Assembly (NCBI GenBank): GCA_022565155.1 | Contig: JADFKB010000005.1 | Coordinates: 1-64,000 of the forward strand | Length of the DNA: 64,000 bases | Direction: 5' to 3' | DNA from: Chloroflexota bacterium | GTDB lineage: Bacteria > Chloroflexota > Dehalococcoidia > DSTF01 > RBG-16-68-14 | Part shown: piece by piece, positions 22,202-37,734 of the stretch | Numbering within the stretch: the stretch's first letter is position 1 | Layout: every line of letters starts with the position of its first letter | Notes under the pieces: model-generated | Database searches by the model: none | Seen by the model: the letters and a program-made list of their open reading frames with translations, nothing else | What the model was told of the DNA's origin: nothing | Position numbers and translations under genes: made by a program

Positions 22202-23452
22202 TTAGCGGCCGATGCCGAGATACTGCATGCCCGCAGCCTCCACGGCCGTCCGGTCCACCGCGTTACGGCCGTCCAGTAGCGCCCGGCAGCCCGTAAACGA
22301 CGCCAGATCGAGGTCTCGGTACACATCGTGCCAGGCCTGCACGATCAGCGCATCGATGCGTGGTGGTGGGAGCGCGCCGGCAGGCTCCAGCCCCAGCTTT
22401 CGCAGCTCATCATCGGAATACAGCGGGTCGTGCATAATCGGCCGCGCACCGCGCCGCCGCAACGCTTCGACGAGCAGTAGCGCGCTCGAATGCGCGGCCT
22501 CCTTCACGTTTGCCCGATAGGCCAGTCCCAGCACCAGTACCGTCGCCCCGCGCAGCGAGCCGATCGCTCGCTCCAGCTTTCCCACGCCGTAGTCCGCCAT
22601 CGCATCGTTGGCGGCGCGCGCTGCCGCCGGCAGGCGGAGGGCGGCCTCTGCTGGGAGGAAGTAGGGGTAGACAGGGAGGCAGTGGCCGCCCACGCCGACG
22701 CCCGGCTGGTGCAGGTGCGAGAACGGCTGGCTGTTCGCCGCCGCGATCGCTTCCGTCACGTCGATGCCGAGTTCGTCGGCGTAGCGCGCCAGCTCACCAG
22801 CGAGCGCGATGTTGACGTCTCGATACACGCCTTCGGCCAGCTTGGAGAGCTCCGCCGTCTCCGGATCGGCGACGCGCAGCACGTCCGGCGCCTCAAGCGC
22901 GTTCGTGTAGAATGCGTGGGCCCGAGACCAGCTCTCGTCGTCGATAGCGCCAACGATCTTGGGGTAGGACTTCAGGTCTGCGAAGATGCGGCCCGTGGTC
23001 AGCCGCTCCGGGCTCGCCGCCAGCAGCGTGGCATCGATGCCGGCCAGCGCGTTGCCCACGCGGCCGCGCGTCGTGCCGACAGGTACCGTGGTTTCAACGA
23101 CGACGAGAGTGCCCGGCTGCAATCCTGCACGAATCGATTCGACCGCGGCGTCCAGTTGCGAGAAGTCAGGCTGTTGGCTCGCAGTCAGGCCGAGGGGCAC
23201 GATGATGACGACGACGTCGCTTTCGCGGACGGCCGCTGCCGTATCGCTCGTCGCGCGCAGGCGGCCCGAAGCGATCGCCGCGTCCAGCGCCGCTTCCAAA
23301 CCGGCCTCGCCTGCGATCGGACAGTCGCCGGCGTTGATCCGCTCTACCTTCGACGCGTCGACGTCGCAGCCGATGACAGAGAGGCCGCGTGAGGCGTACT
23401 GCACCGCCAGCGGCAGCCCGACCTTGCCCAGGCCGACGACGCAGGCCTTCAC
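22202..23452 (-). CDS. UDP-N-acetylglucosamine 6-dehydrogenase-like nucleotide-sugar dehydrogenase (WbpA/WecC family)
   Basis: 416 residues from GTG 23452. The N-terminal Rossmann motif ACVVGLGKVGLPLAVQYA binds NAD; the middle helix and catalytic Cys lie in GVGVGGHCLPVYPYFL; the C-terminal UDP-binding domain includes VLVLGLAYRANVKEAAHS. This is the UDP-GlcNAcA/UDP-ManNAcA-forming four-electron dehydrogenase family. In the setting of the next four genes it would supply UDP-GlcNAc uronic acid, the first intermediate of the UDP-ManNAc3NAcA route. The start overlaps the oxidoreductase stop by 4 bp (GTGA); upstream in-frame sequence has no homology. It is the last gene of the cluster. Confidence 0.9.
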   Translation of the reverse strand: MKACVVGLGKVGLPLAVQYASRGLSVIGCDVDASKVERINAGDCPIAGEAGLEAALDAAIASGRLRATSDTAAAVRESDVVVIIVPLGLTASQQPDFSQLDAAVESIRAGLQPGTLVVVETTVPVGTTRGRVGNALAGIDATLLAASPERLTTGRIFADLKSYPKIVGAIDDESWSRAHAFYTNALEAPDVLRVADPETAELSKLAEGVYRDVNIALAGELARYADELGIDVTEAIAAANSQPFSHLHQPGVGVGGHCLPVYPYFLPAEAALRLPAAARAANDAMADYGVGKLERAIGSLRGATVLVLGLAYRANVKEAAHSSALLLVEALRRRGARPIMHDPLYSDDELRKLGLEPAGALPPPRIDALIVQAWHDVYRDLDLASFTGCRALLDGRNAVDRTAVEAAGMQYLGIGR

Positions 23453-24441
23453 CGCCCCGCTTCTCCCACTGGCACCTGGACTGCATCGCCAAGCTGCGCC
23501 GATTCGACGAGCGCCTCCGCCACTCGCATCGCGGCGATGGCATCGGCCGCGCCGACGAGCGGCGGCTCGAGTCCACGCGCCGTCCGTAGAAACGCTGCCA
23601 GCTCGACGCGCAGCGGCTCCTGCCGCTCCACGTCGATAGCAGTAACGTTGGCCGCGTCCTTGGGGGGTGACGGATCGGGGTCTGGCCCAGAATCGTAAAA
23701 GCGCAGCTCCTGGCGGATGTAATCGGCGACGAACATGCCGTTTTCGCCGACTACGGCCAGCGTTCGCTGCTTGACGGGCGTTAGCCAGTTCACCTCTAAC
23801 GAGCCGATGACACCGTTCTCGAATCGGAGCAGGCCCAGCAGCGCATCTTCGAACTCCGTTCGCACGCCCCGCTGCGTCTCCGCGCGTGCCCGCTCCACCT
23901 CGCAACCGAGCAGGTGGCGCATCACGTCGATGTCGTGCGTCGCCAGGTCGTGTACCACGCCGATGTCGCGGTGGCGCTGGTGGAACGGCCCAACGCGGAC
24001 GGCGCGCATTTGCAGTACTCGGCCGATCTCGCCAGCGTCCAGACGCCGCTTCAACTCCACGACGGCGGGGTTGCAGCGTTCGATGTGCCCTGCTGCCAGG
24101 GGCACGCCGCGCGCCTCGGCGGCCGCCTGTATCCGCTCCCCCTCGGCAACGCTGGCGGCCAGCGGCTTTTCGACCAGCAACGGCACGCCTCGTTCGATGC
24201 AGGCGAGCGCCACCTCCAGGTGCGACCGCGTCGGCACGGCGATCGATACGGCGTCCAAGTGCTCTTCCGCCAGCAGGCGGTGGTAGTCGCCGTAGGCGCG
24301 CGCAGGCGCGTCGTTAAGCCGCGACTCGTCGCAGTCGGCGACGGCGACCAGTTCGGCGTCAGGGAGCTCGCTGTATACTCGCGCGTGGTTGCCGCCCATC
24401 ACGCCCATGCCGATGACGGCGACGCGCAGCCGGTCAGCCAC
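23449..24441 (-). CDS. Gfo/Idh/MocA oxidoreductase, WbpB/WlbA-like UDP-sugar 3-dehydrogenase
   Basis: 330 residues. N-terminal NAD site VAVIGMGVMGGNHARVYSEL, the EKPLA motif with the catalytic Lys, and a C-terminal sheet domain with the conserved HDLATHDIDVMRHLLG. In the wbp/wlb pathway this enzyme oxidises C3 of UDP-GlcNAcA to the 3-keto sugar that the aminotransferase next door uses. Its place between the WbpA-like and WbpE-like genes, with overlaps of 4 and 8 bp, supports that job over other members of this broad family. Confidence 0.85.
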   Translation of the reverse strand: MADRLRVAVIGMGVMGGNHARVYSELPDAELVAVADCDESRLNDAPARAYGDYHRLLAEEHLDAVSIAVPTRSHLEVALACIERGVPLLVEKPLAASVAEGERIQAAAEARGVPLAAGHIERCNPAVVELKRRLDAGEIGRVLQMRAVRVGPFHQRHRDIGVVHDLATHDIDVMRHLLGCEVERARAETQRGVRTEFEDALLGLLRFENGVIGSLEVNWLTPVKQRTLAVVGENGMFVADYIRQELRFYDSGPDPDPSPPKDAANVTAIDVERQEPLRVELAAFLRTARGLEPPLVGAADAIAAMRVAEALVESAQLGDAVQVPVGEAGR

Positions 24442-25540
24442 GGCTTGCTCCGGAAAGCGCGCGTGCGCCGTTCACCGCTGCTGCGATAGCTTCGAGGTCG
24501 CTCTGCGCGAGGGCGGGGTGGATGGGCAGTGACAGCACTTCCTGCGCCGCCCGCTCCGCGACCGGGAACGAGCCGCCGATGCCCAGCTTCTGGTACAGCG
24601 GCTGATGGTGCAGGCAGCGTTCGTAGTACGGGATCGCTTCGATTCCCTGCGAGCGGAGGCTGTCGCGGAGCGCGTTGCGTGCGCCGCCTGGCACTCTGAC
24701 CGTGTACTGCTGGTAGACGTGGCGGGCGTCCGGGCGCTCCTGCGGCGTGACGACTCCCGCCAGGCGCTCGCTGAGCCAGGCGGCGTTGGCGCGGCGGCGC
24801 TCGTTCCAACGGTCCAGTTTTCGTAGCTGCGCCAGCCCCAGCGCCGCGGCGATCTCCGTCATCCGGAAGTTGCCGCTCAGCAGCGAGGTAACGTAGCGCG
24901 TCTCCTCGCCCTGGTTGCGTAGTATCCGCGCCTGCTCCGCGACCCGCCCGTCGTCCGTCACCACCATGCCGCCTTCGCCCGTCGTCATGCTCTTCGTGGC
25001 GTAGAAGGAGAAGCAGGCCGTTCCCCGCGACCCTATGGTCGCTCCGCGCCAGGACGCCCCGATCGCCTGGCAGGCGTCCTCGACGATCAGTAAGTCGCGC
25101 GCCTCGGCGAAGCCGCGCAGCGCCGTCATATCGCAGGGATGGCCGAAGAGGTGCACGGGCACGATCGCCCGTGTGCGCGGAGTTACCGCCGCCTCCGCGC
25201 GCGCTATGTCGCCCGTCAAATCGATAGTATAGTCGTCCTCGCGGACGTCGGCGAGCACAGGCCGCGCGCCGGCGAGCAGGACGGCGTTCGCGCTGGCGGC
25301 GAAGGTGAACGCCGGCACGAGCACTTCGTCGCCGTCGCCGATGCCGTGCGCCTGCAGCGCGATCACCAACGCGGCGGTGCCGGACGAGACGGCGACGGCG
25401 TGGCGGGCTCCGAAGTGCTCCGCGAACGCCTCCTCGAACTCGGCGACGCGCGGCCCTTGCGCCAGGCGGCCGGAGCGCAGCGCGGCCAGCACCGCCTGCT
25501 CCTCCTCGTCGCCGATCAGCGGCTGGGCGATGCGGATCAT
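24434..25540 (-). CDS. DegT/DnrJ/EryC1 sugar aminotransferase, WbpE/WlbC-like
   Basis: 368 residues from ATG 25540, which overlaps the acetyltransferase stop (ATGA). PLP Lys in SFYATKSMTTGEGG, the phosphate-site SSGTAALVIAL, and the EDACQAIGASWRG helix place it in the sugar-aminotransferase family. Here it would put an amino group on the 3-keto UDP-GlcNAcA using glutamate, the WbpE reaction. An alternative upstream start adds 20 non-homologous residues. A second, distinct DegT enzyme is 4 kb upstream in the same cluster. Confidence 0.88.
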   Translation of the reverse strand: MIRIAQPLIGDEEEQAVLAALRSGRLAQGPRVAEFEEAFAEHFGARHAVAVSSGTAALVIALQAHGIGDGDEVLVPAFTFAASANAVLLAGARPVLADVREDDYTIDLTGDIARAEAAVTPRTRAIVPVHLFGHPCDMTALRGFAEARDLLIVEDACQAIGASWRGATIGSRGTACFSFYATKSMTTGEGGMVVTDDGRVAEQARILRNQGEETRYVTSLLSGNFRMTEIAAALGLAQLRKLDRWNERRRANAAWLSERLAGVVTPQERPDARHVYQQYTVRVPGGARNALRDSLRSQGIEAIPYYERCLHHQPLYQKLGIGGSFPVAERAAQEVLSLPIHPALAQSDLEAIAAAVNGARALSGASRG

Positions 25541-26115
25541 CGCGTCTGCACCTCCGCCTCCTCGAACTGAAAGCTCTGTTTGCAGGTTTCGCAGCGCCAA
25601 CGTTCGTCCTCCTGCGCGAGCGGCCGGCCGCAGGTGCAGACGTAGCCAACGGCGCGGGCGGGGTTGCCTGTGACCAGCGCATGCTCCGGCACATCGCGCG
25701 TGACGACCGCGCCAGCCGCGACCAGCGCCCAGCGTCCGATGACGATGCCGGGCAGCACGACCGCGCCCGCGCCGATAGACGCGCCGTACGACACCAGCGT
25801 TGGTTCTGCCTGCCAGTCGTCCTCAGTGAGCGGCTCACCTTCGGCATTGACGGCGCGAGGATAGCGGTCGTTGCTGAAGCTGACGTGCGGGCCGATAAAG
25901 ACGCCGTCCTGAACCGTCAAGCCACGAAAGAGGGAGGCGCGATTCTGAATCTTCACCCTGTCGCCGACAACGACACCGCGGTCGATGTAGACGCCCTTGC
26001 CGATCACGCACTCCTCGCCGACGACGGCGTCTTCCCGCACCTGGGCTTCGTGCCAGATGCGCGTGCCCGCACCGATGCGGGCGCTATCCGCGACGTGCGC
26101 CGTGGGATGGATCAT
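25537..26115 (-). CDS. Hexapeptide-repeat N-acetyltransferase, WbpD/WlbB-like, with C-terminal zinc ribbon
   Basis: 192 residues. Left-handed beta-helix repeats run through most of the protein (for example IGKGVYIDRGVVVGDRVKI, IGAGAVVLPGIVIGRWALVAAGAVVT), with the catalytic-type His in FSNDRYPRA context typical of this subgroup. The tail has two Cys pairs (CTCG and CETC), a small metal ribbon found in WlbB-type enzymes. It would acetylate the new 3-amino group to give UDP-GlcNAc3NAcA. It overlaps the epimerase gene by 32 bp and the aminotransferase by 4 bp. Confidence 0.88.
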   Translation of the reverse strand: MIHPTAHVADSARIGAGTRIWHEAQVREDAVVGEECVIGKGVYIDRGVVVGDRVKIQNRASLFRGLTVQDGVFIGPHVSFSNDRYPRAVNAEGEPLTEDDWQAEPTLVSYGASIGAGAVVLPGIVIGRWALVAAGAVVTRDVPEHALVTGNPARAVGYVCTCGRPLAQEDERWRCETCKQSFQFEEAEVQTR

Positions 26116-27166
26116 CGCGCAGCAACTCTACCATGCGCTGGGCAGCGTGGCCATCGCCGAAGAGGGCGGCCGGCTCACCTGTTGGCCCCGTCCGCTGCGC
26201 CGCTTTCACGATGCGAGAGGGTTCCGTGCCGGCGAGCACGTTCCAGCCGCCGCCGCACGTCTCCGGCCACTCCGTCTCCTCGCGCAGCGTCACGCAGGGC
26301 ACGCCCAGCAAGTAGGCTTCTTTCTGGACGCCGCCGGAGTCGGTCAGCACGACGCGCGCGCTCCGCTCCAACGCGAGCATCTCCAGATACCCGACCGGCT
26401 CGATCACGCGAACGTTTGGCGTCGGTTCCAGATTCGCCGCCACCAGCGCCGCCCGTGCCCGCGGGTGGATGGGGAAGACCACCGGCTCGTCCAGCAGCGC
26501 CAGCGCCTCCAGTATCCGGCCGAGGGCGGCCGGGTCGTCCGTGTTGGCCGCGCGGTGCACCGTCACCAATACGTACCCTTTTGGTTGCAACTTCAGCCGT
26601 TCAATAACGTCTGTTCGCTCCTCGCTCAGCGGCAGGTGCTGGAGCAAGGCATCGTACATAATGTCGCCGGTGAGGCGGGCGCGCTCCGCCAAGCCTTCGC
26701 GGGATAGCTGGTCGAACGCGGTCTGCGTCGGGCAGAAGAGCAGGTCGGAACAGTGGTCAGTGACGATTCGATTGATCTCCTCCGGCATCGAACGGTTGAA
26801 GCTGCGTAGTCCCGCCTCCACATGGGCCAGCGGCAGGCCCAGCTTCGCGGCCGCCAGCGCGCCGGCGAGCGTTGAGTTGGTGTCGCCGAAGACGACGACC
26901 CAGTCCGGCGCTTCCTCTTGCAGCACCGGCTCCAGCCGCTCCAGCATGCGGCCGGTCTGCTCTCCGTGCGGCCCGGAGCCGACGCCGAGCCGGTGTCGCG
27001 GTTCGGGCAGATCGAGAGACTGGAAGAAGACGGCGGACAGCTCGTCGTCGTAGTGCTGGCCGGTGTGGACGAGCGCCTCTTCGATTCGCTGGGCGCGAAG
27101 CGCGGCGCTGAAGGCGGCGGCCTTGATGAATTGCGGTCGGGCGCCGGCGATGGTGACGACCTTCAC
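26084..27166 (-). CDS. UDP-N-acetylglucosamine 2-epimerase family, WbpI/WlbD-like
   Basis: 360 residues from GTG 27166. GT-B fold epimerase motifs: TIAGARPQFIKAAAF, VVFGDTNSTLAGALAAAKL, LAHVEAGLRSFNRSMPEEINR, and TDSGGVQKEAYLLGVPCVTLREETEWPE. WecB converts UDP-GlcNAc to UDP-ManNAc; the WbpI branch acts on UDP-GlcNAc3NAcA to give UDP-ManNAc3NAcA. The presence of the four other wbp-type genes in one overlapping block favours the WbpI role. Confidence 0.88.
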   Translation of the reverse strand: MKVVTIAGARPQFIKAAAFSAALRAQRIEEALVHTGQHYDDELSAVFFQSLDLPEPRHRLGVGSGPHGEQTGRMLERLEPVLQEEAPDWVVVFGDTNSTLAGALAAAKLGLPLAHVEAGLRSFNRSMPEEINRIVTDHCSDLLFCPTQTAFDQLSREGLAERARLTGDIMYDALLQHLPLSEERTDVIERLKLQPKGYVLVTVHRAANTDDPAALGRILEALALLDEPVVFPIHPRARAALVAANLEPTPNVRVIEPVGYLEMLALERSARVVLTDSGGVQKEAYLLGVPCVTLREETEWPETCGGGWNVLAGTEPSRIVKAAQRTGPTGEPAALFGDGHAAQRMVELLRDDPSHGARRG

Positions 27167-27174
27167 GGGGGTGG

Positions 27175-29082
27175 CTAGTTTTCGGAGATAAAGGGCGCCG
27201 GGTGTACGTCCCGCAGGTCGATGCGGGCGAGCGCGTGCAGGCGGGCCGCCAGCTCGTCGCGGTCCTCCGGCAGGTCGCGCTGCAACGCTTCGATCTTGCC
27301 GATGATCTCGTCTGCGGAGCAGGCGGGCGTGTTGTCCGCCAGGAAGATCTTAGGATGCGCCGTGCCCAGGAAGCGGCCGCGTCGTTGCAACGGCTCCTCG
27401 CCCAAATGCTCCCCGGGGCGGAGGCCGGTGTAGACGATCTCGATCTCTTTGCCGGGCTGGTAGCCGCGCAGCCGGATCAGCTTCTCCGCCAGGTCGCCGA
27501 TCTTCACCTCTTCGCCCAGGTCGAGCACGAATATCGACTCTTGCTCCTGGAACGCCGCCGCCTGCAGCAGCAGGCGCACGACCTGCGGCGGCGACATGAA
27601 GTAGCGCGTCGCCTGGGCGTCCGTCAGTAGCACCGGCCCGCCGCGTTCGATCTGGCGCAGGAACAGCGGTACCACGCTGCCCCGGCTGCCCATCACGTTG
27701 TGCAGCCGCACGGCGTTGTAGCGTGTCTTGCTGCGGCTAGCCAGCGCCACCGTCAGCAGCTCGCCGATGCGCTTCGTCGCGCCGTAGACGCTGTCCAGTT
27801 CGGCCGCCTTGTTGCTGGAGAGGAAGACGAACTGCTGCGCCCCCACGGCGTCGGCTGCGCGGCAGAGGTTCATCGTGCCCACGACGTTGACGTGGAACGC
27901 AGCCTCCGGGTGGGCTTCGATGACGGGGATATGCTTGTAGGCGGCGGTGTGGAAGATGACATCGGGCCGGGCGGCGCGGAAGGTGCGCTCCACCTGTTCG
28001 CGGTCGACGATGTTCGTGATCCAGATGCGCGCCTCCACGCCTTCGGCCGCGAGATCGCGCTGCAGGTCGTAGAGGCCGGTCTCGTTGGTATCGAGCAGGT
28101 GGAGGACGGATGGCCCCAGCGCGAGCAGTTGCTTGGTCAGCTCCTGGCCCAGATAGCCGGCTGCCCCTGTGACCAGCACGCCGCGGTCGCGGACGAGGTC
28201 AGCGCACGCCGCGGTATCGACCTTCGTCTCCTCGCGGCCGAGCAGGTCGTCGACGGTGATCTCGCGGAGCTGGGCGGACCCGCCCGCGTGCACCATCTCC
28301 GGCACGCCCGGCACCGTCCGCACCGCCACGTCGCCCTGCTGGCAGAGGCCGACGAAGTCGCGGATCGTGGCGCCGCTGGCGGAGGGCATCGCCAGCGCGA
28401 CCATATCGACGCTGCGGCTGGCGACGAGGTGCGGAATGTCCTGCCGCACCCCCAGTATCGTCAGGCCGTGGATGCGCTGGCCGCGCTTCTTCGGATCGTC
28501 ATCGACGAAGCCGATCGGCTTGTACTGCCACTCCGGATGCTGGAGGAACTCGCGTGCCAGCATCTGGCCGGTGTGGCCCGCGCCGGCGATCAGCACCTGC
28601 TGCGCCGGCCCGCCCCAGCCCGTAAACGGGGCTTGTGAGCGCAACCTCGGCCAGAGCTTCGCCACGCCCATCGAGAGGAAGATCAGCGCCGGCGCGGTGC
28701 CCGTGACGGTGAGCGGGATATGGCGCGGCGTCAGGAAGACGTTGATGCCGATGAGGAGGATCGAGACGAGGCCGACGGCTGACGCCAAGGTGATCGCGTC
28801 GGCGATGCTGGCGTACTGCCAGGCCGTTCGATAGATGCCGAAGAAGTAGTTACCGGCCAGATACGCGAGCACGATCAGCGCGATCACCTGGCCGAAGAAG
28901 ACCATCGATTCGCGCGGGATCGTACCATCGAACTTGAGGCCGAGCGCCGCCGCGTAGCTGGCGATGATCAGCAGCGCATCGAGTGCGAGGACAGGCAGCA
29001 GCCGCAGGCCGCGCTCGAGCAGCCATCCCGTTCCGCGCTGGGAGGCCGGTTCGCCGCTAGAACTGCTGGACTGCTCCGGCAT
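27175..29082 (-). CDS. CapD/PglF/WbpM-like membrane nucleotide-sugar SDR
   Basis: 635 residues. Four N-terminal membrane helices (about residues 28-120), a Rossmann-like CoA-binding-type domain (VLIAGAGHTGQMLA), then the SDR domain with VTGAAGYLGQEL. Family members are UDP-GlcNAc 4,6-dehydratases that start synthesis of bacillosamine-type sugars. The catalytic segment here reads LSSNKAAELDSVYGATK: Lys and Tyr-x3-Lys are kept, but the Asp of the usual STDKA is Asn. WbpM/PglF relatives have Met at the Tyr position, so this enzyme mixes features. It may be a dehydratase with altered chemistry or an epimerase. The PglC-like and second DegT genes beside it suggest a 4-amino-sugar pathway. Confidence 0.82.
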   Translation of the reverse strand: MPEQSSSSSGEPASQRGTGWLLERGLRLLPVLALDALLIIASYAAALGLKFDGTIPRESMVFFGQVIALIVLAYLAGNYFFGIYRTAWQYASIADAITLASAVGLVSILLIGINVFLTPRHIPLTVTGTAPALIFLSMGVAKLWPRLRSQAPFTGWGGPAQQVLIAGAGHTGQMLAREFLQHPEWQYKPIGFVDDDPKKRGQRIHGLTILGVRQDIPHLVASRSVDMVALAMPSASGATIRDFVGLCQQGDVAVRTVPGVPEMVHAGGSAQLREITVDDLLGREETKVDTAACADLVRDRGVLVTGAAGYLGQELTKQLLALGPSVLHLLDTNETGLYDLQRDLAAEGVEARIWITNIVDREQVERTFRAARPDVIFHTAAYKHIPVIEAHPEAAFHVNVVGTMNLCRAADAVGAQQFVFLSSNKAAELDSVYGATKRIGELLTVALASRSKTRYNAVRLHNVMGSRGSVVPLFLRQIERGGPVLLTDAQATRYFMSPPQVVRLLLQAAAFQEQESIFVLDLGEEVKIGDLAEKLIRLRGYQPGKEIEIVYTGLRPGEHLGEEPLQRRGRFLGTAHPKIFLADNTPACSADEIIGKIEALQRDLPEDRDELAARLHALARIDLRDVHPAPFISEN

Positions 29083-29710: not shown

Positions 29711-30904
29711 CTAACGGCCCGGGCGCCGGTGCGCCTCCGCGATCTCGCGCACGGCGGCTGCCACGCGCTCCACGCCGGCGTCCTCCATGCGTGGATAGAT
29801 CGGCAGCGAGATCAACCCTTCGTAGATCGCCTCGGTCACAGGGAAGTCGCCAGGGCCGAGCGATAACGCCTTTCGATAGTACGGATGCAGGTGGATCGGG
29901 ATGAAGTGGACGGAGGTGCCGATGCCGCGTTCGCGCAGCTCCTCGATGAAGTGTGCGCGGTCGATGGTGAGCCGGTCGAGCTGCAAGCGGATGGGGTAGA
30001 GGTGCCAGGCGTGGACGATCTCGTCGCGCATCGGCGGGCGGATCAGCTCCGGTACGCCGGCGAAGAGAGCGTTGTACTGGTTGGCGATGTGCGTGCGGCG
30101 CGCCTGAAACGCCTCTAACCGTTTTAGTTGGTGGATGCCCAGCGCGGCCTGGATGTCGGTCATCGCGTAGTTGAAGCCGGGCGCCAGTACCTGGTACTCG
30201 GCGCTGCCGCCTTTCGAGTAACGGTTCCAGGCGTTCTTGCTCAGGCCATGGAGGCTGAGCAACCGCACCTGGTTGGCCAGATCGGCGTCGTTTGTCGTCA
30301 GCATGCCGCCCTGGCCGGTGGTGATCGCCTTGATCGGGTAGAAGCTGAACACCGCCGCGTCCGTCAGGGCGCCGATCGGCTGCCCGCGATAGCGTGCGCC
30401 GATCGCGTGCGCCGCGTCTTCGATGACGCGCAGCTTGTGCCGGTCTGCCAGCGCTTGCAGCTCGTCCATGCGGCAGGGCTGGCCGCCGTAGTGCACCGGC
30501 AGTAGCGCCTTCGTTCGCGGCGTAATCTTACGCTCGATCTCGTCGACATCGATGTTGTAGTCGTCCTCGCGCACGTCGGCCAGCACCGGTGTGGCGCCGG
30601 CGTGGAGGATGACGTTGACCGTGGCGGCGAACGTGAGCGGCGTTGTGATCACCTCGTCGCCGGGGCCGATGCCCGCCGCCAGCAGCGCCAGGTGCATGCC
30701 CGCGGTGCAGGACGAGAGCGCGACGGCGTGCGACGCGCCGGTTACATCCCGGAAGCCCTCCTCGAAGGCCTGGACCTTGGGGCCGCCGGTCAGCCAGCCG
30801 GAGCGCAGCGTATCGACGACTTCGTCGATCTCCTCCTGCCCGATCTCCGGCTGCGCGAACGGCAGGAACGGCTCGACGGCGGCGGCCGGACTCGATTCGG
30901 TCAC
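29711..30904 (-). CDS. Second DegT/DnrJ sugar aminotransferase (PglE/PseC-like)
   Basis: 397 residues from GTG 30904, overlapping the methyltransferase stop by 4 bp. PLP Lys in FSFYPIKAITTGQGG, SSCTAGMHLALLAAG for phosphate, and EDAAHAIGARYRG. C-terminal contact region HFIPIHLHPYYR is typical of 4-aminotransferases of nucleotide sugars (PglE, PseC, ArnB). It would aminate the 4-keto sugar produced by the CapD-like enzyme. Open frame upstream of the GTG lies antisense to or overlaps other genes and has no homology. A sugar N-acetyltransferase specific for this branch was not found nearby. Confidence 0.88.
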   Translation of the reverse strand: MTESSPAAAVEPFLPFAQPEIGQEEIDEVVDTLRSGWLTGGPKVQAFEEGFRDVTGASHAVALSSCTAGMHLALLAAGIGPGDEVITTPLTFAATVNVILHAGATPVLADVREDDYNIDVDEIERKITPRTKALLPVHYGGQPCRMDELQALADRHKLRVIEDAAHAIGARYRGQPIGALTDAAVFSFYPIKAITTGQGGMLTTNDADLANQVRLLSLHGLSKNAWNRYSKGGSAEYQVLAPGFNYAMTDIQAALGIHQLKRLEAFQARRTHIANQYNALFAGVPELIRPPMRDEIVHAWHLYPIRLQLDRLTIDRAHFIEELRERGIGTSVHFIPIHLHPYYRKALSLGPGDFPVTEAIYEGLISLPIYPRMEDAGVERVAAAVREIAEAHRRPGR

Positions 30905-31581
30905 TGCGCGCGCTCCTTGATCACGGCGGCGAGCAGGTGGCTGCGCAGCCAGGGCAGCCGTTCCAGCCGCCGGCAAAGGCCGGGCCGCCCGCCAAGCGCC
31001 CGCACGATCGGCGGCGCCAGCGTCACGCGTTCGACCTCGACCCGGCTTCCCGCGAAGAGCGCGCGCAGCTCGTTTGGCCGTAGCGAGCGCGTCGTCCGAT
31101 TTAACGGGTTGACCCAGAAGTCGTAGACGGCCAGCAATCCTCCCGGCCGCAGCACGCGGAGCGTCTCGGCCGCGGCTTGTTCGCGCTCCCGCTGGTCGAG
31201 CATGGAGGTCAGCGACGTGAACGCGAACGCTACGTCGAATGATCCGTCGCGGTACGGGAGCGCGGCGGCGTTGGCGACGGCGAGTGGTGTTCCGGGCAGG
31301 GCGGCGCCTGCGCCGGCGACCGTTGCGGACGCGATATCGATGCCTATTAGCCTGTCGCCATCCGCCCCATAGTGGAGCAACGTGCGTAGCAGCGAACCGC
31401 CGCCGCAGCCGACTTCGAGGATGCGTAACCCGGCGAGCGTCTCGATGCCGTGGCGGCGCAGCAGCGTCAGCAGCGCCTCGTCGCGGGATTGGTGAACATA
31501 ACGATCGGTGGCGTCGAGGTGTGCGTAGAGGCCAGTCTCCGGCGCGCCCGGCTGCGCTGCGGCTACCGGTACAAAGCTCAC
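30901..31581 (-). CDS. SAM-dependent methyltransferase
   Basis: 226 residues from GTG 31581, coupled to the glycosyltransferase by a 4-bp overlap. Class I fold: motif I ILEVGCGGGSLLRTLL, the acidic end of strand 2 in LIGIDIA, motif near LPYRDGSFDVAFAFTSLTSM, and LRPGGLLAVYDFW. Inside a glycan cluster it probably methylates a sugar or caps the growing chain, but O-, N- or C-methylation cannot be told. The in-frame extension upstream overlaps the glycosyltransferase gene and is not coding. Confidence 0.82.
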   Translation of the reverse strand: MSFVPVAAAQPGAPETGLYAHLDATDRYVHQSRDEALLTLLRRHGIETLAGLRILEVGCGGGSLLRTLLHYGADGDRLIGIDIASATVAGAGAALPGTPLAVANAAALPYRDGSFDVAFAFTSLTSMLDQREREQAAAETLRVLRPGGLLAVYDFWVNPLNRTTRSLRPNELRALFAGSRVEVERVTLAPPIVRALGGRPGLCRRLERLPWLRSHLLAAVIKERAQ

Positions 31582-32606
31582 GGCGCTTCCGCTTCTCGCG
31601 GCATCGCGACCGGCTGGCGCAAGAGCGTACGCACAATGCCGATGAGGAAACCGAGCCCATAGGCGATATGGAGACATCCGAACGCCACCGGCAGCCGCGG
31701 CAGGTGACGCCAGCCGGAGCGCCAGGAAAGGACGAGAGAAGTGGCAACGGACGCGGCGAGGTACGCTCCCGCAATCGCTGCCAGCGGCAAGATGAACATG
31801 CCGCCGAACGCCGCGAGGATCCCGAACGCGAGCAGCGCCAAGATGAAGGCGGACGGCGCGAGCTGCCGTAGCCTCGTCTGACGCGGGTGGCGGGAGAGCA
31901 CGACCACTTTCGCCTGGCCGTAGCCGAAGTACTGGCGCGCCAGCTCCCAGTACGACCGGCGGGCATAGTAGGTCGATCGAATCGCCGGCGTCAGCAGGAT
32001 GCGGCCCCCGTGGTCGCGTAGCCGGTAGTGCAACTCGTCGTCCTCGCCGCCGTCGATCTCCGCGAACGGGCCGATCCGGTCGAAGACGTCGCGCCGGTAG
32101 GCGGGGAAGGCGACGGTGTCGGTCCACTGCTCGCGCTGGCTGTAGCGGAAGACAGCGTTGCCGATACCGAACGGCGATGAGATGGCGAGCGCGATTGCCT
32201 CGCCTGCCGGGCCATCACCCCGCGTCTCGATTGGGCCGCCGGCGACATCGGCGCCTGTGCGCTTCAGCGCGGCGACGCATTGGCTGATGTAGTCCGGCGC
32301 GACGGTTGCGTGCGCGTCGACACGGGCGATGACATCACCCTGCGCAAACGCGAGGCCGATGTTCAGGCCGCTCGCGGTGGACTTCCCCCGGTTTTCGATC
32401 ACCTGCAGCCGCGGCACCGCCTCTCGCAGCGACTCTGCGACGCCGCGCGAGCCGTCCTCCGAGCCGCCATCGACGACGATTACCTCAATTTGGTCGCGCG
32501 GGTAGTCCTGGGCTGTGAGGCTGCGAATGCAGCGCTCGATGTGGCGCTCTTCGTTGCGCATCGGGACGATGACGGAGACGAACGGCAGGGTGGATGCTTC
32601 AGACAT
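31578..32606 (-). CDS. Family 2 glycosyltransferase with C-terminal membrane helices
   Basis: 342 residues. GT-A fold: VSVIVPMRNEERHIERCIRSL, DVIARVDAHATVAPDY (the DxD-like metal site), and GEDDELHYRLRDHGG for the acceptor side. Three hydrophobic helices close the protein (LAPSAFILALLAFGILAAFGG and following), as in ExoA-like enzymes of exopolysaccharide synthesis. It acts on the cytoplasmic face with a nucleotide-sugar donor. Donor and acceptor are unknown. Confidence 0.9.
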   Translation of the reverse strand: MSEASTLPFVSVIVPMRNEERHIERCIRSLTAQDYPRDQIEVIVVDGGSEDGSRGVAESLREAVPRLQVIENRGKSTASGLNIGLAFAQGDVIARVDAHATVAPDYISQCVAALKRTGADVAGGPIETRGDGPAGEAIALAISSPFGIGNAVFRYSQREQWTDTVAFPAYRRDVFDRIGPFAEIDGGEDDELHYRLRDHGGRILLTPAIRSTYYARRSYWELARQYFGYGQAKVVVLSRHPRQTRLRQLAPSAFILALLAFGILAAFGGMFILPLAAIAGAYLAASVATSLVLSWRSGWRHLPRLPVAFGCLHIAYGLGFLIGIVRTLLRQPVAMPREAEAP

Positions 32607-32629
32607 GGGATCGACCAGAACGGGCGGTG

Positions 32630-33733
32630 TTAGCCCTCGGGTACGGTAGCACGGGCCGCGCCTTCTGCAAAGGATTCGAGCAGGTGGCGGTAGAGCCGTT
32701 CCATCTGGGCGGCGTTCTCTTCCCAGCGATAGCGCTCCTGGACAAGGGCACGGCCCGCCGCGCCCATCTTCGTGCGCAGAGCCGCGTCTTCGGCCAGGCG
32801 CCGGATCGCGGCCGCCAGCGCGTCTACATCGCCGGGCGGCGTCAGGATGCCGGTGCGGCCGTCGTCCACGACGTCCGGGATGCCGTGGACGCGCGAGGCG
32901 GCGACGGGCAGCGTCATCGCTGACGCCTCGATCGCTGCTACGCCGAAGCCTTCTGCCAGCGAGGGCATCGCGAAGATGTCGAACTCCGCGAGCGTCGCCG
33001 GCACGGCTTCGTGCGCTATCTCGCCTCGAAACTCCACTGATGCGGCGATGCCGAGTTCGCCTGCCAATCGAGCCAGCTTCTCGCGTTCCGGCCCGTCGCC
33101 GGCCAGCACCACGCGCAGCCTCGTGCCGCTATCGAGCAGTCGAGCGGCGGCGCGGAGCAGCACGTCCAGCCCCTTCTCCGGCGACAGCCGCGCCACTGCG
33201 CCGACAACGACTTCGTCCTCGCCGGCAGCGTCGCGCGGGCCGGGCTGGAAGCGGGCTAGATCGACGCCGTAGGGCACGACCGTCACCGGCGTCGATTCGG
33301 GCGTGTACGGCAGCGTCGCGTTCGCCAGGTGGAGGCCGGTGGCGGTGACGTGGTCGGTTCGCGCCAGGGCGTATCTCGTGATCATGTTGTGGAGCGGGCT
33401 CCACCGCGGCGCTTCCAGGATGTCGGTGCCCCAGACCGAGGTAAGGGTGGGTCTAATGCCGCAGAGCGCGGCGAGCAGGCCGTAGCTGGTGAGGTGCATC
33501 GCGTGGAGCAGATCGGGCTGGAGCGCGCGCACCAGCCTGCGTACGCGGCGGGCGTGGAGCAGGTAGCGGGCCTTGCCCAGCCGCTCCCAGCCATCGATGT
33601 GGTGGACGCGCGCGCCTTGGATCTGCGCCGGCCGGAAGGAGACGACGTGCGTCTCCCAACCGGCGCGGGCGAAGTGCTCTACCCAGCGCCGGGTGTGGAT
33701 GTAGGGGGCATCGGCCAGATAGACGACACGCAT
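32630..33733 (-). CDS. Family 4 glycosyltransferase
   Basis: 367 residues from ATG 33733. GT-B fold: N-terminal RVVYLADAPYIHTRRWVEHFARAG, hinge VVPYGVDLARFQPGP, and C-terminal VGAVARLSPEKGLDVLL with the nucleotide-sugar EX7E motif in PSLAEGFGVAAIEASAMTLPV. Retaining glycosyltransferase using a nucleotide sugar. The start is supported because upstream in-frame sequence is Arg/Pro-rich and unrelated. It follows the previous gene by 67 bp. Confidence 0.9.
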   Translation of the reverse strand: MRVVYLADAPYIHTRRWVEHFARAGWETHVVSFRPAQIQGARVHHIDGWERLGKARYLLHARRVRRLVRALQPDLLHAMHLTSYGLLAALCGIRPTLTSVWGTDILEAPRWSPLHNMITRYALARTDHVTATGLHLANATLPYTPESTPVTVVPYGVDLARFQPGPRDAAGEDEVVVGAVARLSPEKGLDVLLRAAARLLDSGTRLRVVLAGDGPEREKLARLAGELGIAASVEFRGEIAHEAVPATLAEFDIFAMPSLAEGFGVAAIEASAMTLPVAASRVHGIPDVVDDGRTGILTPPGDVDALAAAIRRLAEDAALRTKMGAAGRALVQERYRWEENAAQMERLYRHLLESFAEGAARATVPEG

Positions 33734-33800
33734 GTCACATCGAGTGTACGGCGCAGAGCGGACGTTGCCAACCGAATCGGACCGACCACAAGGTCTGTCC

Positions 33801-35042
33801 CTATATATCAATGACGTCCGCTTCTCCCGCGCGGCCGGCCAGGCGGTAGTACCAGGCCTCCATTCTCGCCATGTTCGTCTCCTGCACGCCGTACTCCTCC
33901 ACGAACGCGCGGTTGCGCTCGACGGCGTCGCGCCGCAGGCTACCGTCTTCCAGCGCCGCGCAGATCGCTTCGGCCAGCGCCGCCTCGTCGCGGACGGGCA
34001 CGCGCAGGCCGGTGACGCCGTGTTCGACCAGCTCCTGCTGGCTGGGCAGGTCGGAGACGATAGGGAAGCAGCCGGCGGCCTGCGCCTGCAGTAACGCAAC
34101 CGACGTACCGTCGGATGACGGGACGGAGACGAAGACCTCGGCCTCGCTGAGGGCGGCGCGAAACTCCGGCTGCGCGAGCGCGCCGGTGAAGCGAATTACG
34201 TCGCTCAGGCCGAGCTCGGCCGCTAGCCTTTCGAGCCGCCCGCGCAGCCTACCGTCGCCGGCGACGACGAGCCGGGCAGCCGGCAGCGACTCCCGGACGC
34301 GTGCCATCGCGCGGACGATGACATCGACGTTGTAGAGCGGCATGTCGAGCGAGCGGGTGCTGATCAAGGTAGGCACGTGCTTCGATTCGGGCGGCCGGGC
34401 GTTGACAGAGGCCGGGCCGCGATCGATGAAGTCGCGCTCGACGCCGAGGACGATGTGCTGTACGCGCGCCCGATCGATGCCGAGCTTGAGCACCATCTCA
34501 CGCGCCATATAGCGGTTGTTCGCAGTCGCCAGGTCGGTTCGTCTCAATACGAATCTGGCTAGCGCGCGGTTGATCGGTGAGCGAGCGGCTTCGACGAGCA
34601 CATCGGAGCCCCAGGCGGAGACGACGTACGGATGGTAGTTGGCCGCCGTTGCGTACAGGCCATGCTCGACGAGGTAGTGCGCGTGTAGGACATCGGGAGC
34701 GATCGCTTCCACGGTGCGTCTGATGCCGGCGCGCCGATATCGGAGCAGGTTGGCCACTCGCTGCAGGCTGGGCGGTAGTAGCTGAGCTATTCGGGCGGTT
34801 GTGCTCTCCTTCCGCGACCCCGTTTGGGGGCGTCCGCCCTTCCGGGGAAGGGCGGGCCGGAGGGTGTGGACCAGCACGCCCTCCGGCGGCCGCGCCGGTG
34901 TGTAGTACGACACGCCGTGGACTTCGTGGCCGCGCTGGACAAAGTAGCGCAGCCAGCTCTGTGTATGGACGCCTTCCAGGTCGCCGACAACGCAGAGGCG
35001 CAGCCGGCGTTCGGGTGGCAGCTCTTTGACAGGCATCGTCAT
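33801..35042 (-). CDS. Family 4 glycosyltransferase with degenerate EX7E motif
   Basis: 413 residues, ATGA overlap with the flippase stop. GT-B fold: LCVVGDLEGVHTQSWLRYFVQRGHEV, HYLVEHGLYATAANYHP and VVSAWGSDVL in the acceptor domain, and VVAGDGRLRGRLERLAAELGL with SVPSSDGTSVALLQAQAAG in the donor domain. Where most family members have Glu-x7-Glu, this one has Asp in SSDGTS and Gln in LLQAQ. The second Glu normally touches the donor sugar, so activity or donor choice may be altered. The rest of the fold appears complete. Confidence 0.87.
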   Translation of the reverse strand: MTMPVKELPPERRLRLCVVGDLEGVHTQSWLRYFVQRGHEVHGVSYYTPARPPEGVLVHTLRPALPRKGGRPQTGSRKESTTARIAQLLPPSLQRVANLLRYRRAGIRRTVEAIAPDVLHAHYLVEHGLYATAANYHPYVVSAWGSDVLVEAARSPINRALARFVLRRTDLATANNRYMAREMVLKLGIDRARVQHIVLGVERDFIDRGPASVNARPPESKHVPTLISTRSLDMPLYNVDVIVRAMARVRESLPAARLVVAGDGRLRGRLERLAAELGLSDVIRFTGALAQPEFRAALSEAEVFVSVPSSDGTSVALLQAQAAGCFPIVSDLPSQQELVEHGVTGLRVPVRDEAALAEAICAALEDGSLRRDAVERNRAFVEEYGVQETNMARMEAWYYRLAGRAGEADVIDI

Positions 35043-36382
35043 GACTGTACAGCGGCGAATCGACGGCGCGCCGCCTCCAGATAGCCGCGCAGGTCGTCGC
35101 CTCGAATCAACACAGCCTCCGATATCGACCCGCCGGACAACCGTCGATACGCCGCCAATGAGAGCGCGAAGTGAACGACGTACGCGATCGAAGACGCGAT
35201 CGCCGCGCCCGTGACGCCGAACGGCGGTATCAGCGCGAAGTCGGCGATGACGGTGGCGATGAGCGCGGCGGCGGTGATCAGGCTGTTGGTCAGCGGCTGG
35301 CCCTGGCTAAAGATGTAGCTGGTCAAGATCTTCGAGCCCGCCAGCGCCACCGTGCCCGGCAGCAGCCAGAGCAGCGGATTAAGCGCGGACCCGAACTCGC
35401 CGCCGAACAGCCCTTCCACCAGCCACGGGGAGATCGCGGCGAGCGCCGACGCCGCCAGCACGCTGACCAGCAGCGTGTTCCGGCAGACGACCGGCGTGGT
35501 GCGTGCTGCCTCGGTTTTCGAAGCGGCGGTGAGGCGCGGCAGCAGCACGGCGGCAACGGCGTTGGCGATGAACCAGACGCTCTGGCTCATGGTGACGCTG
35601 ACCGCGTAGATCCCGACCCCGGCCGTGCTCACGAAGAGCAGGACGATGTACTGGTCCAGCCGGTAGTTCAGCAGCTGCACCAGGTTGCCAACTTGGCCCC
35701 GCATGCCGAATCTCACCTGCCTGCGCAGCGACGGCCCATCGAAGCGCAGTAGCTCGCGCAGCCGCAGCGCCGGCCGGCCGAGCAGGAGCAGCGCCAGCAG
35801 CGTCGCCGCCAGCGTGCCGCCCGACCAGCTGAGCAGTGCCATCCTGGTGTCGATTTCGCCGAACGCGGCGCCGGCGCCGAGCAGCGCCAGCAACGCAATC
35901 GGTTGCGCGACGACGACCGCGCTCATCGCCGTGAAGCGGCTTGCTCCTTGCAGGATCGTCGTCAGCACCTGGTAGTTGACGAAGAGCGGCACGGCGAAGG
36001 CGAAGATCCAGTACGGCGTATCGTGATCGAGTAGCCTATCGCCGAACAGCGGCCAGGCGATCAGCACCAGCAGCCCGCTCACAACCGCCGAGCCTAGCAC
36101 CACGTGCTGGCTGTTCGCGACGATGCGGGCGATCGCAGTCGTGCCCTTCCCCAGCTCGTAGACGGCCGATACGCCGAGGCCGAGGCTGAGCGCCGCCTGC
36201 GTGATCGATGCCGAGAGCAGGAACAGCGCGTAGACGCCCCGGCCTTCCGCTCCTAACGCGCGGGCGAGAATGACGGCGATGACGAACGCGAGCGTGGCGT
36301 TGGCGACATAGGTGAGGAAGACGAAGTTGACGTTCGCCAGAAAGCCCGCCTGTTCTCGCCGCGCCACCTGCCCTTCCGCCAC
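35039..36382 (-). CDS. Wzx-type lipid-linked oligosaccharide flippase
   Basis: 447 residues with about 12 to 14 hydrophobic helices spread evenly and the PST/MATE-like start NVNFVFLTYVANATLAFVIAVILARALGAEGRGVYALF. Such proteins move undecaprenyl-diphosphate-linked glycan across the inner membrane. It belongs to the same overlapping transcription unit as the glycosyltransferases. No Wzy polymerase or O-antigen ligase was recognised beside it, so either a single repeat unit is transferred or those genes lie elsewhere. Confidence 0.88.
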   Translation of the reverse strand: MAEGQVARREQAGFLANVNFVFLTYVANATLAFVIAVILARALGAEGRGVYALFLLSASITQAALSLGLGVSAVYELGKGTTAIARIVANSQHVVLGSAVVSGLLVLIAWPLFGDRLLDHDTPYWIFAFAVPLFVNYQVLTTILQGASRFTAMSAVVVAQPIALLALLGAGAAFGEIDTRMALLSWSGGTLAATLLALLLLGRPALRLRELLRFDGPSLRRQVRFGMRGQVGNLVQLLNYRLDQYIVLLFVSTAGVGIYAVSVTMSQSVWFIANAVAAVLLPRLTAASKTEAARTTPVVCRNTLLVSVLAASALAAISPWLVEGLFGGEFGSALNPLLWLLPGTVALAGSKILTSYIFSQGQPLTNSLITAAALIATVIADFALIPPFGVTGAAIASSIAYVVHFALSLAAYRRLSGGSISEAVLIRGDDLRGYLEAARRRFAAVQS

Positions 36383-36383
36383 G

Positions 36384-37637
36384 CTAGCGGCTCCCGGCGA
36401 CCGGCTGCGCCGTCTGGCTAACTAGCCGCTCGACCTCGTCCAGCTCGGCCGCCAGCCGCGCCTCCCAGGTCCAGAACTCGCTCTCGGCGTAGTGGCGCGC
36501 GCCTGCGCCGAGACGGCCGCGCTCCTCGTCGTCCTCCGCCAACGCCACTACCGCATCCGCGATCGCTTCCGGTGCGCCCGTCGCGAGCAGGCGGCCGGTG
36601 TTCCCATCGCGGATCAGTTCGCCCGTCGCGCCGGCATCGACCGTGATGATTGGCAGGCCGCACGTCATCGCCTCCAACAGCGGATTGCCGACGTTCGAGA
36701 GGTCGGCTGGCGCAAGGAACAAGTCGGCGGCGTGCATGTAGTCGACCACCCTCTCCTGCGGCACCGCGCCCGCGAAGCGGACACGCTCCACAACGTTTAA
36801 CGCGCGCGCCTGCTGCTCTAAGCTAGCTCGCTCCTCGCCGTCGCCGACGACGAGCAGCAGCGCGTTCGGCACGCCGCGCAGGATGCGCGGCAGCGCAGCG
36901 ATCGCCCGGTCGACCCGCTTCCAGGCCGCCAGACGGGATGCCGTCAACAGCACGAAGTCTTCGTCCGCCAGGTTAAACGCAGCGCGCTTCGCTGGCCTCT
37001 CGCTGGCTTCGGCAGGTCCCAGACGATCGAGATCGAGGCCGTTGCGCCAGAATCGTAGCTTCTGCCCGGCGGCGCTATTGACGCGTCTCAGCACCTCGTC
37101 GCCGCGCGTGCCGTCGTTCGTCATGATGTAGATGTCCGCGGGCAGGCGCAAGGCCAGCAGCTCCTCGTACATACGTAGGCGCGCCAGCGGGCTGGCCAGC
37201 GCCGGATACATCACCGTGCCCTGAAATCGCGCGACGGTGGGAAGTTCGGCGCGCAGTAGGCGCGCGGCCAGCGCCCCGTGCACCTCGTAGGCGTAGAGCA
37301 GGTCGACCTGCTCGCGCTCCAGCACGCCGCGGGCGCGGCGCGCGGCTAGGAACGGATAGAGGAAGGCGAAACGTAGCTTCTGGTCGGCCTTCTTCAGCAA
37401 CTGAGGTAAGGGCAGGCGCGATTCCTGCAGGCTGGGGAGATGAAATCGCTCGAAGGTGACGCCGGCGATGTCCGGCGGCGGGCCGGGCGAGAACGCGTTC
37501 GCTCCCACCGTGGGTGCGATGTACGTCACCCGATGCCCGCGCTCGCCGTACGCGCGCAGGGTGCGATACAGCGTTGGCGCGCCGCCGCGACCCGGAAGCG
37601 CCCACACCTCCAGCGCGCACAGCATCAGTACGTGCAT
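36384..37637 (-). CDS. Family 4 glycosyltransferase
   Basis: 417 residues from ATG 37637, preceded by GGGAGG. GT-B fold: HVLMLCALEVWALPGRGGAPTLYRTLRAYGERG at the N-terminus, YAYEVHGALAARLLRAELP and LKF-type acceptor region, hinge FWRNGLDLDRLGP, and donor half ASRLAAWKRVDRAIAALP with LSNVGNPLLEAMTCGLPIIT. It is the first gene of the 14-gene cluster and probably defines its promoter region, although no clear -35/-10 pair was seen in the 97 bp towards tRNA-Pro. Donor and acceptor are unknown. Confidence 0.9.
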   Translation of the reverse strand: MHVLMLCALEVWALPGRGGAPTLYRTLRAYGERGHRVTYIAPTVGANAFSPGPPPDIAGVTFERFHLPSLQESRLPLPQLLKKADQKLRFAFLYPFLAARRARGVLEREQVDLLYAYEVHGALAARLLRAELPTVARFQGTVMYPALASPLARLRMYEELLALRLPADIYIMTNDGTRGDEVLRRVNSAAGQKLRFWRNGLDLDRLGPAEASERPAKRAAFNLADEDFVLLTASRLAAWKRVDRAIAALPRILRGVPNALLLVVGDGEERASLEQQARALNVVERVRFAGAVPQERVVDYMHAADLFLAPADLSNVGNPLLEAMTCGLPIITVDAGATGELIRDGNTGRLLATGAPEAIADAVVALAEDDEERGRLGAGARHYAESEFWTWEARLAAELDEVERLVSQTAQPVAGSR

Positions 37638-37734
37638 CGTTCGCCTCCCGCGCAGTGTAGCCGCCGCGTGGAAGCCGATCAATCTTCTCGACAGTGTGAC
37701 GGACGGTTTGTTACCATGCGGCATACTCCCCGGT

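Follow-up and report, generated by a model that had tools for sequence, protein, structure and literature searches.

What does a long CapD/PglF-like SDR do once the catalytic Asp of its family has been replaced by Asn? The question is raised by a gene at positions 27175–29082 (minus strand) of the window, the 64,000-nucleotide stretch of a Chloroflexota genome analysed here. The limits first assigned to the gene were confirmed exactly: the open reading frame starts with ATG and encodes 635 aa, with an N-terminal membrane and CoA_binding_3 region at residues ~1–260 (Pfam CoA_binding_3 over residues 81–258, 54.7 bits) and a catalytic PF02719 domain at residues 302–582 (280.6 bits, model positions 1–291 of 293 in Pfam). 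The combination of PF02719 with the N-terminal membrane/CoA_binding_3 part assigns the protein to the long CapD–PglF–WbpM architecture. Where the family reads T-D-K…[M/Y]…K, the catalytic positions are S422, S423, N424, K425, Y433 and K437 (27772–27819, minus strand), given by the motif FLSSNKAAELDSVYGATKR, in which SSNKA occupies residues 422–426; the minus-strand codons are 27811–27813 for N424 (AAC), 27808–27810 for K425, 27784–27786 for Y433 and 27772–27774 for K437. The sequence-only reading, which had described a CapD-like enzyme with Asn for the catalytic Asp, is borne out by this S-N-K…Y…K arrangement in a long PF02719 protein.

Published fingerprints assign [ST]DKxnYx3K to FlaA1/PseB, TDKxnMx3K to PglF/WbpM and [ST]xnYx3K to GalE epimerases (PMC8987622), in agreement with the earlier statement that PseB/FlaA1 dehydratases use Asp-Lys-Tyr and PglF/WbpM use Asp-Lys with Met. 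The catalytic residues of FlaA1-type enzymes are D132, K133 and Y141 (PMC5774825), Asp being given as the acid and Lys as the base (PMC8987622); in PglF, the C4 proton is taken by Thr and Asp, and dehydration is served by Lys (PMC8987622). Measured against PglF/FlaA1-type dehydratases, the window protein and its family lack the complete acid-base pair ([ST]DK), reading S-N-K with the Lys retained, and possess the [M/Y]x3K element as Y433…K437. S423, Y433 and K437 of the [ST]…Yx3K triad are present alongside Lys425 of the acid/base pair.

Among solved proteins, PglF is nearest in sequence (207 bits) and is also the best fold match (TM 0.84/0.90, 36% identity) to an AlphaFold2 model built for the catalytic part (pLDDT 87.9, pTM 0.86), followed by WbjB, Pen and CapE, with GalE-type epimerases trailing at a TM of about 0.62. 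Scores of 133 bits against the PseB model TIGR03589 and 61 bits against the GalE-type 4-epimerase model TIGR01179 fall below the curated cut-offs of 407.75 and 262.3, respectively. The window protein resembles the UDP-GlcNAc 4,6-dehydratases PglF (C. jejuni) and WbpM (P. aeruginosa) in its membrane part, CoA_binding_3, PF02719 and fold, as well as in gene place, ahead of genes for an aminotransferase and for a phosphoglycosyl transferase. However, it differs from PglF in Asp396→Asn (His in sister families), Thr395→Ser and Met405→Tyr, and from PglF/WbpM in RFGN→RLHN and the change of a conserved Met to Leu at 522. PseB-type SDRs have in common with it the triad's Tyr and Lys as well as the Lys beside the acid site, but are short, soluble and Asp-Lys. 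Wild-type PglF, FlaA1, WbjB and CapE all carry Asp-Lys at the aligned site, and Thr-Asp-Lys is the reading in the family's solved dehydratases. PDB entries 5bjv (D396N/K397A) and 6bwc (Ser-Asn at the Asp-Lys site) were rejected as natural variants because both are engineered mutants, and no proven dehydratase with a natural Asn at the Asp site was found, the kind of enzyme that the sequence-only reading had named as its counter-evidence.

Homologues were gathered from the relatives of the genome and then from its order, class and phylum. The Chloroflexota alignment comprised 114 distinct Asp-Lys genes against five with Asn-Lys, two with His-Ala and two with His-Thr, and in this survey all genes other than Asp-Lys were confined to one order. 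Alignment around the motif confirmed the Asn and showed it to be fixed, together with Lys and Tyr, in all five full-length genes of the window's GTDB family, from four species (the window gene, two genes in genome G002 and one each in G004 and G005). His-Ala with Met was found in the two genes of sister family f2 and His-Thr with Tyr in the two genes of sister family f3. Family f4 of the same order, represented by eight genomes, has Asp-Lys in 7/7 genomes with a full gene, and the same pair is present in 89/89 further homologues, 80 on viral contigs and nine on plasmids whose hosts belong to Bacillota, Deinococcota, Pseudomonadota and Bacteroidota. Together with the 114 from Chloroflexota, this makes 203/203 sampled homologues other than the three variant families. 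Some Asp-Lys homologues (L048, L049, L047, L050, L052, L130 and L136) have Leu at the third catalytic position rather than Met or Tyr. As judged from these alignments, the window protein is a known kind of enzyme with an unusual, repeated active-site change, and the His-Ala and His-Thr sister families were absent from the sequence-only reading.

Fixation of Asn in five genes of four species rejects a sequencing or assembly error, and a pseudogene is rejected by open frames and by purifying selection in all variant pairs tested (dN/dS 0.08–0.28). A scan of genome contigs found two loci, both of the same family. Genome G002 carries two whole loci (L067 on contig C90 and L070 on C96), both Asn-Lys and each with the order aminotransferase–transferase–CapD–2-epimerase–acyltransferase–DegT–Gfo. 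A paralogue supplying the dehydratase was considered and rejected, as no second full PF02719 protein was found in the variant genomes. The window's own genome holds RmlB and GalE-like SDRs, which leave a residual chance of an alternative dehydratase source.

Phylogenetic analysis with the trait columns masked grouped the Asn-Lys clade with Asp-Lys family f4 as its sister (support 100); the His clade fell elsewhere, adjoining an Asp-Lys sequence (support 98). A single origin of all variants was rejected by the AU test (p 0.0035 for the full length and 0.008 for the catalytic domain). The intact Asp-Lys pair has disappeared from three families, all of one order, and did so at least twice, once giving Asn-Lys and once giving His-Ala and His-Thr. 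Among the 57 catalytic-domain positions that are near-invariant (≥95% identical) in Asp-Lys proteins, six are changed in the Asn-Lys clade and seven in the His clade, of which four (424, 460, 461 and 522) are common to both; without the group-defining position 424 (56 sites), the overlap has p 0.0066. The other changes common to both clades are F460L, G461 to His/Ala/Thr and M522 to Leu/Val/Ala, and none of the changes at 460, 461 and 522 was found in the Asp-Lys control lineages. In the window protein, they correspond to L460-H461 (F-G of the family RFGN; 27700–27705, minus strand) and L522 (27517–27519, minus strand), the latter being Met in 114/114 Asp-Lys Chloroflexota homologues. By homology, Gly461 and Met522 would lie near the sugar. 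Each variant has gained one new His, at 461 in the window form and at 424 in the sister families. The proposal that loss of the Asp changes function is supported by these repeated, correlated active-site changes; nevertheless, Asn by itself is no proof of lost dehydration, given the behavior of CapE D125A (see below) and the retained Lys.

The gene lies in a minus-strand cluster ordered GT4–flippase–GT4–GT4–GT2–methyltransferase–DegT aminotransferase–phosphoglycosyl transferase–CapD-like gene, followed by 2-epimerase–hexapeptide acyltransferase–second DegT–Gfo/Idh–UDP-HexNAc 6-dehydrogenase. The GT2, the three GT4 enzymes and the Wzx-like flippase are encoded at 31578–37724, and the class I methyltransferase at 30901–31577 (start approximate), the C-terminal part of an open reading frame at 30901–32127. 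The first aminotransferase, a PseC/ArnB-like DegT protein (29711–30904), begins at a GTG codon preceded by AAGGAG. The small phosphoglycosyl transferase (Bac_transf PF02397; 29109–29708) likely puts the first sugar on the lipid carrier. On the other side of the CapD-like gene are a UDP-GlcNAc 2-epimerase of WecB/WbpI type (26084–27166), a hexapeptide acyltransferase of NeuD/WbpD type (25537–26115), the second DegT aminotransferase in a WbpE-like place in the locus (24434–25600), a Gfo/Idh protein like UDP-GlcNAc(A) 3-dehydrogenases and WbpB (23449–24441) and a WbpA/WecC-like UDP-HexNAc 6-dehydrogenase (22202–23450, start estimated from domain limits). Two larger open reading frames, an ATG version of the first aminotransferase reaching 31966 (751 aa) and a 482-aa frame at 24399–25847, were rejected as over-long or wrong-frame readings. 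By gene family, the WbpA/B/E/D/I (ManNAc3NAcA-type) set of 6-dehydrogenase, 3-dehydrogenase, DegT, acetyltransferase and 2-epimerase is complete, and the five genes after the CapD-like gene are predicted to match WbpI/D/E/B/A for a ManNAc3NAcA-type sugar.

Families f1 to f4 and Asp-Lys relatives farther off all keep the order of the aminotransferase–phosphoglycosyl transferase–CapD core, save one f4 genome, and the downstream five-gene set is retained in many of the compared relatives. In G012, of family f4, the CapD homologue stands apart from the cluster (L076 and L168), and neither aminotransferase nor phosphoglycosyl transferase was recognised alongside. Four Asp-Lys/Met loci of class family f36 (L083, L164, L165 and L169) retain CapD, the phosphoglycosyl transferase and the acyltransferase–DegT–Gfo set, but over the stretch covered they have neither the first aminotransferase nor the 2-epimerase. 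With its ketosugar enzyme, DegT aminotransferase and phosphoglycosyl transferase adjoining, the window core constitutes an initiation module like PglF–WcfR–WcfS, a trio shown to load AATGal on a lipid carrier (PMC13063421). The UngD2(PglF)–WcfR–WcfS pathway of B. fragilis matches the window's putative 4-ketosugar maker, aminotransferase and initiating phosphoglycosyl transferase (PMC13063421), but its sugar is 6-deoxy, and in the window locus the dehydration step is doubtful.

The partner aminotransferase also differs between the two sides. Immediately before its PLP Lys (I189-K190 in the window; 30329–30334, minus strand), 9/9 variant-family loci encode Ile and 10/10 Asp-Lys loci encode Thr. 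The CapD motif was directly seen in seven of the nine Ile loci and was assigned from the family in L166 and L040, whose contigs do not include the catalytic half of CapD; three of the ten Thr loci were added after the Ile/Thr pattern was noticed. With these three loci, the initial 11 columns differing between variant-side and Asp-Lys-side aminotransferases were reduced to one fully consistent conserved column, and ≥1 such column occurred in 15 of 55 other clade splits. As a count, a single consistent column is therefore unremarkable; what is suggestive of a co-change with CapD is its position beside the catalytic lysine. A single origin of the Ile was rejected on the aminotransferase tree (AU p 0.0045). 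Profile scores for PseC against ArnB did not separate variant-side from Asp-Lys-side aminotransferases.

The interpretation that we tentatively prefer is a remodelled active site, in which C4 oxidation is kept, efficient 4,6-dehydration is given up and a 4-keto sugar is still fed to the aminotransferase. The enzyme would bind a UDP-N-acetylhexosamine and NAD, as before, and would oxidise C4 with Tyr433 as the base, or Ser/His in the Met form; water would no longer be efficiently removed across C5–C6, and the 4-keto sugar, its 6-hydroxyl intact, would pass to the adjacent PseC/ArnB-like aminotransferase. The neighbouring phosphoglycosyl transferase would take the sugar of the resulting 4-amino-4-deoxy-HexNAc nucleotide and place it on the lipid carrier to begin a surface polysaccharide, whereas known PglF–WcfR–WcfS (AATGal-type) chemistry would be expected in the Asp-Lys relatives. 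The sugar unit that the variant enzyme of this Chloroflexota order supplies for the cell surface is probably a different one. In the ArnA–ArnB pair, an SDR oxidises C4 without 4,6-dehydration and the keto sugar is handed to a DegT aminotransferase; the oxidative part of ArnA with ArnB resembles the proposed window pair, and ArnB is the nearest solved relative of the window aminotransferase (336 bits) and also has Ile before the PLP Lys. Nevertheless, ArnA is unlike the window protein in that it belongs to another SDR subfamily, decarboxylates UDP-GlcA and is absent among the sequence and fold matches listed.

On current assignments, the window form is without the acid but retains the base, the sister families are without the base and have His at the acid position, and each of the three forms has a group that could serve as base in C4 oxidation. 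Should the common changes reflect a common function, the form devoid of both Asp and Lys would be the one to go by, and efficient 4,6-dehydration would be unlikely; the His-Ala and His-Thr forms lack the Lys equivalent to CapE K126, and CapE K126A and K126E are dead, with conversion only 4–6-fold lower in D125A (PMC3699295). The retained aminotransferase needs a keto sugar, which would favor C4 oxidation without dehydration over epimerisation. Several points count against such C4 oxidation. The window form keeps its Lys, and CapE D125A still partly dehydrates (PMC3699295). The aminotransferase link depends on a single column. We know of no PF02719 enzyme that oxidises C4 without dehydrating, and if a 4-keto sugar leaves without the hydride being returned, NADH has to be re-oxidised. 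The fuller claim, that a PglF-type 4,6-dehydratase turned twice independently into a C4 oxidase releasing a non-deoxygenated (or decarboxylated) 4-keto UDP-HexNAc, with a co-adapted aminotransferase, is possible but doubtful.

The main rival, and a strong one above all for the window's Asn-Lys form, is that the protein is still a UDP-GlcNAc 4,6-dehydratase, in which a substitute acid (Lys425, water or His461 in the window, His424 in the sisters) protonates the leaving C6 hydroxyl and the usual 4-keto-6-deoxy product is formed. We regard this as a serious though uncertain possibility, consistent with the activity of CapE D125A (PMC3699295), with the retention of Lys425, Tyr433, Lys437 and Glu558 in the window form, with the one new His per variant at 424 or 461 and with the presence of the aminotransferase–phosphoglycosyl transferase trio found beside Asp-Lys copies too. 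However, continued dehydration leaves unexplained the replacement of an invariant Asp, the disappearance of the essential Lys from both the His-Ala and the His-Thr family and the correlated changes at F460, G461, M522 and in the aminotransferase.

The sequence-only reading had suggested that loss of the Asp might yield a C4 epimerase or a ketoreductase; the epimerase would turn UDP-GlcNAc into UDP-GalNAc, and the reductase would act on a 4-keto group. All three members of the SDR triad (S/T, Tyr and Lys) persist in the window form, GalE-type enzymes have [ST]xnYx3K without the acid/base pair (PMC8987622), and such a reaction is redox-neutral with NAD tightly held. GalE/WbpP UDP-hexose 4-epimerases, extended SDRs with [ST]…Yx3K and no acid/base pair, are comparable with the window protein, in which the pair is broken with its Lys kept; they belong to another subfamily by sequence and fold score and need no aminotransferase partner. 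An epimerase frees no keto sugar, yet a ketosugar-type aminotransferase stands beside every variant locus with a visible flank; the fold is of PglF type (TM 0.84, against about 0.62 for GalE type), although fold does not decide chemistry. Altered function is supported, but epimerisation or ketoreduction is an unlikely outcome because the 4-ketosugar-type aminotransferase is kept, with one active-site residue changing in step, and because GalE-like SDRs are already in the genome.

It is quite improbable that the enzyme acts in an ArnA-like manner, oxidising C4 and decarboxylating a UDP-HexNAc uronic acid from the cluster's own 6-dehydrogenase to give a 4-keto pentose for the ArnB-like aminotransferase: the Ile shared with ArnB, the presence of that dehydrogenase and a His or Lys in each variant where the carboxylate could sit are compatible with it, but the aminotransferases of Asp-Lys neighbours score equally ArnB-like and the uronic acid is better explained by the adjoining ManNAc3NAcA-type set. 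A catalytically dead remnant kept for a membrane or scaffold role, which loss of invariant catalytic residues might suggest, is highly unlikely in view of purifying selection, conserved nucleotide-binding and remaining catalytic residues, parallel and specific replacements at identical sites and the lack of another full PF02719 protein as a substitute in these genomes.

For these dehydratases the Asp-Lys pair counts as a hallmark, and the fact that it has been replaced repeatedly, in step with active-site and aminotransferase changes, represents a natural experiment on oxidation versus dehydration in the PF02719 SDR family. Blanket annotation of PF02719 proteins as 4,6-dehydratases is unsafe, since it assigns to three families of one order a 6-deoxy sugar that they may not make. 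If C4 is indeed oxidised without dehydration, the product would be an undescribed first sugar for bacterial surface glycans. Elsewhere in the window, a 1147-aa open reading frame (59040–62483, minus strand) has a C-terminal dockerin type I domain as its sole Pfam match, and a 460-aa protein (41491–42873, plus strand) combines an alpha/beta hydrolase domain with a class III adenylate/guanylate cyclase domain.
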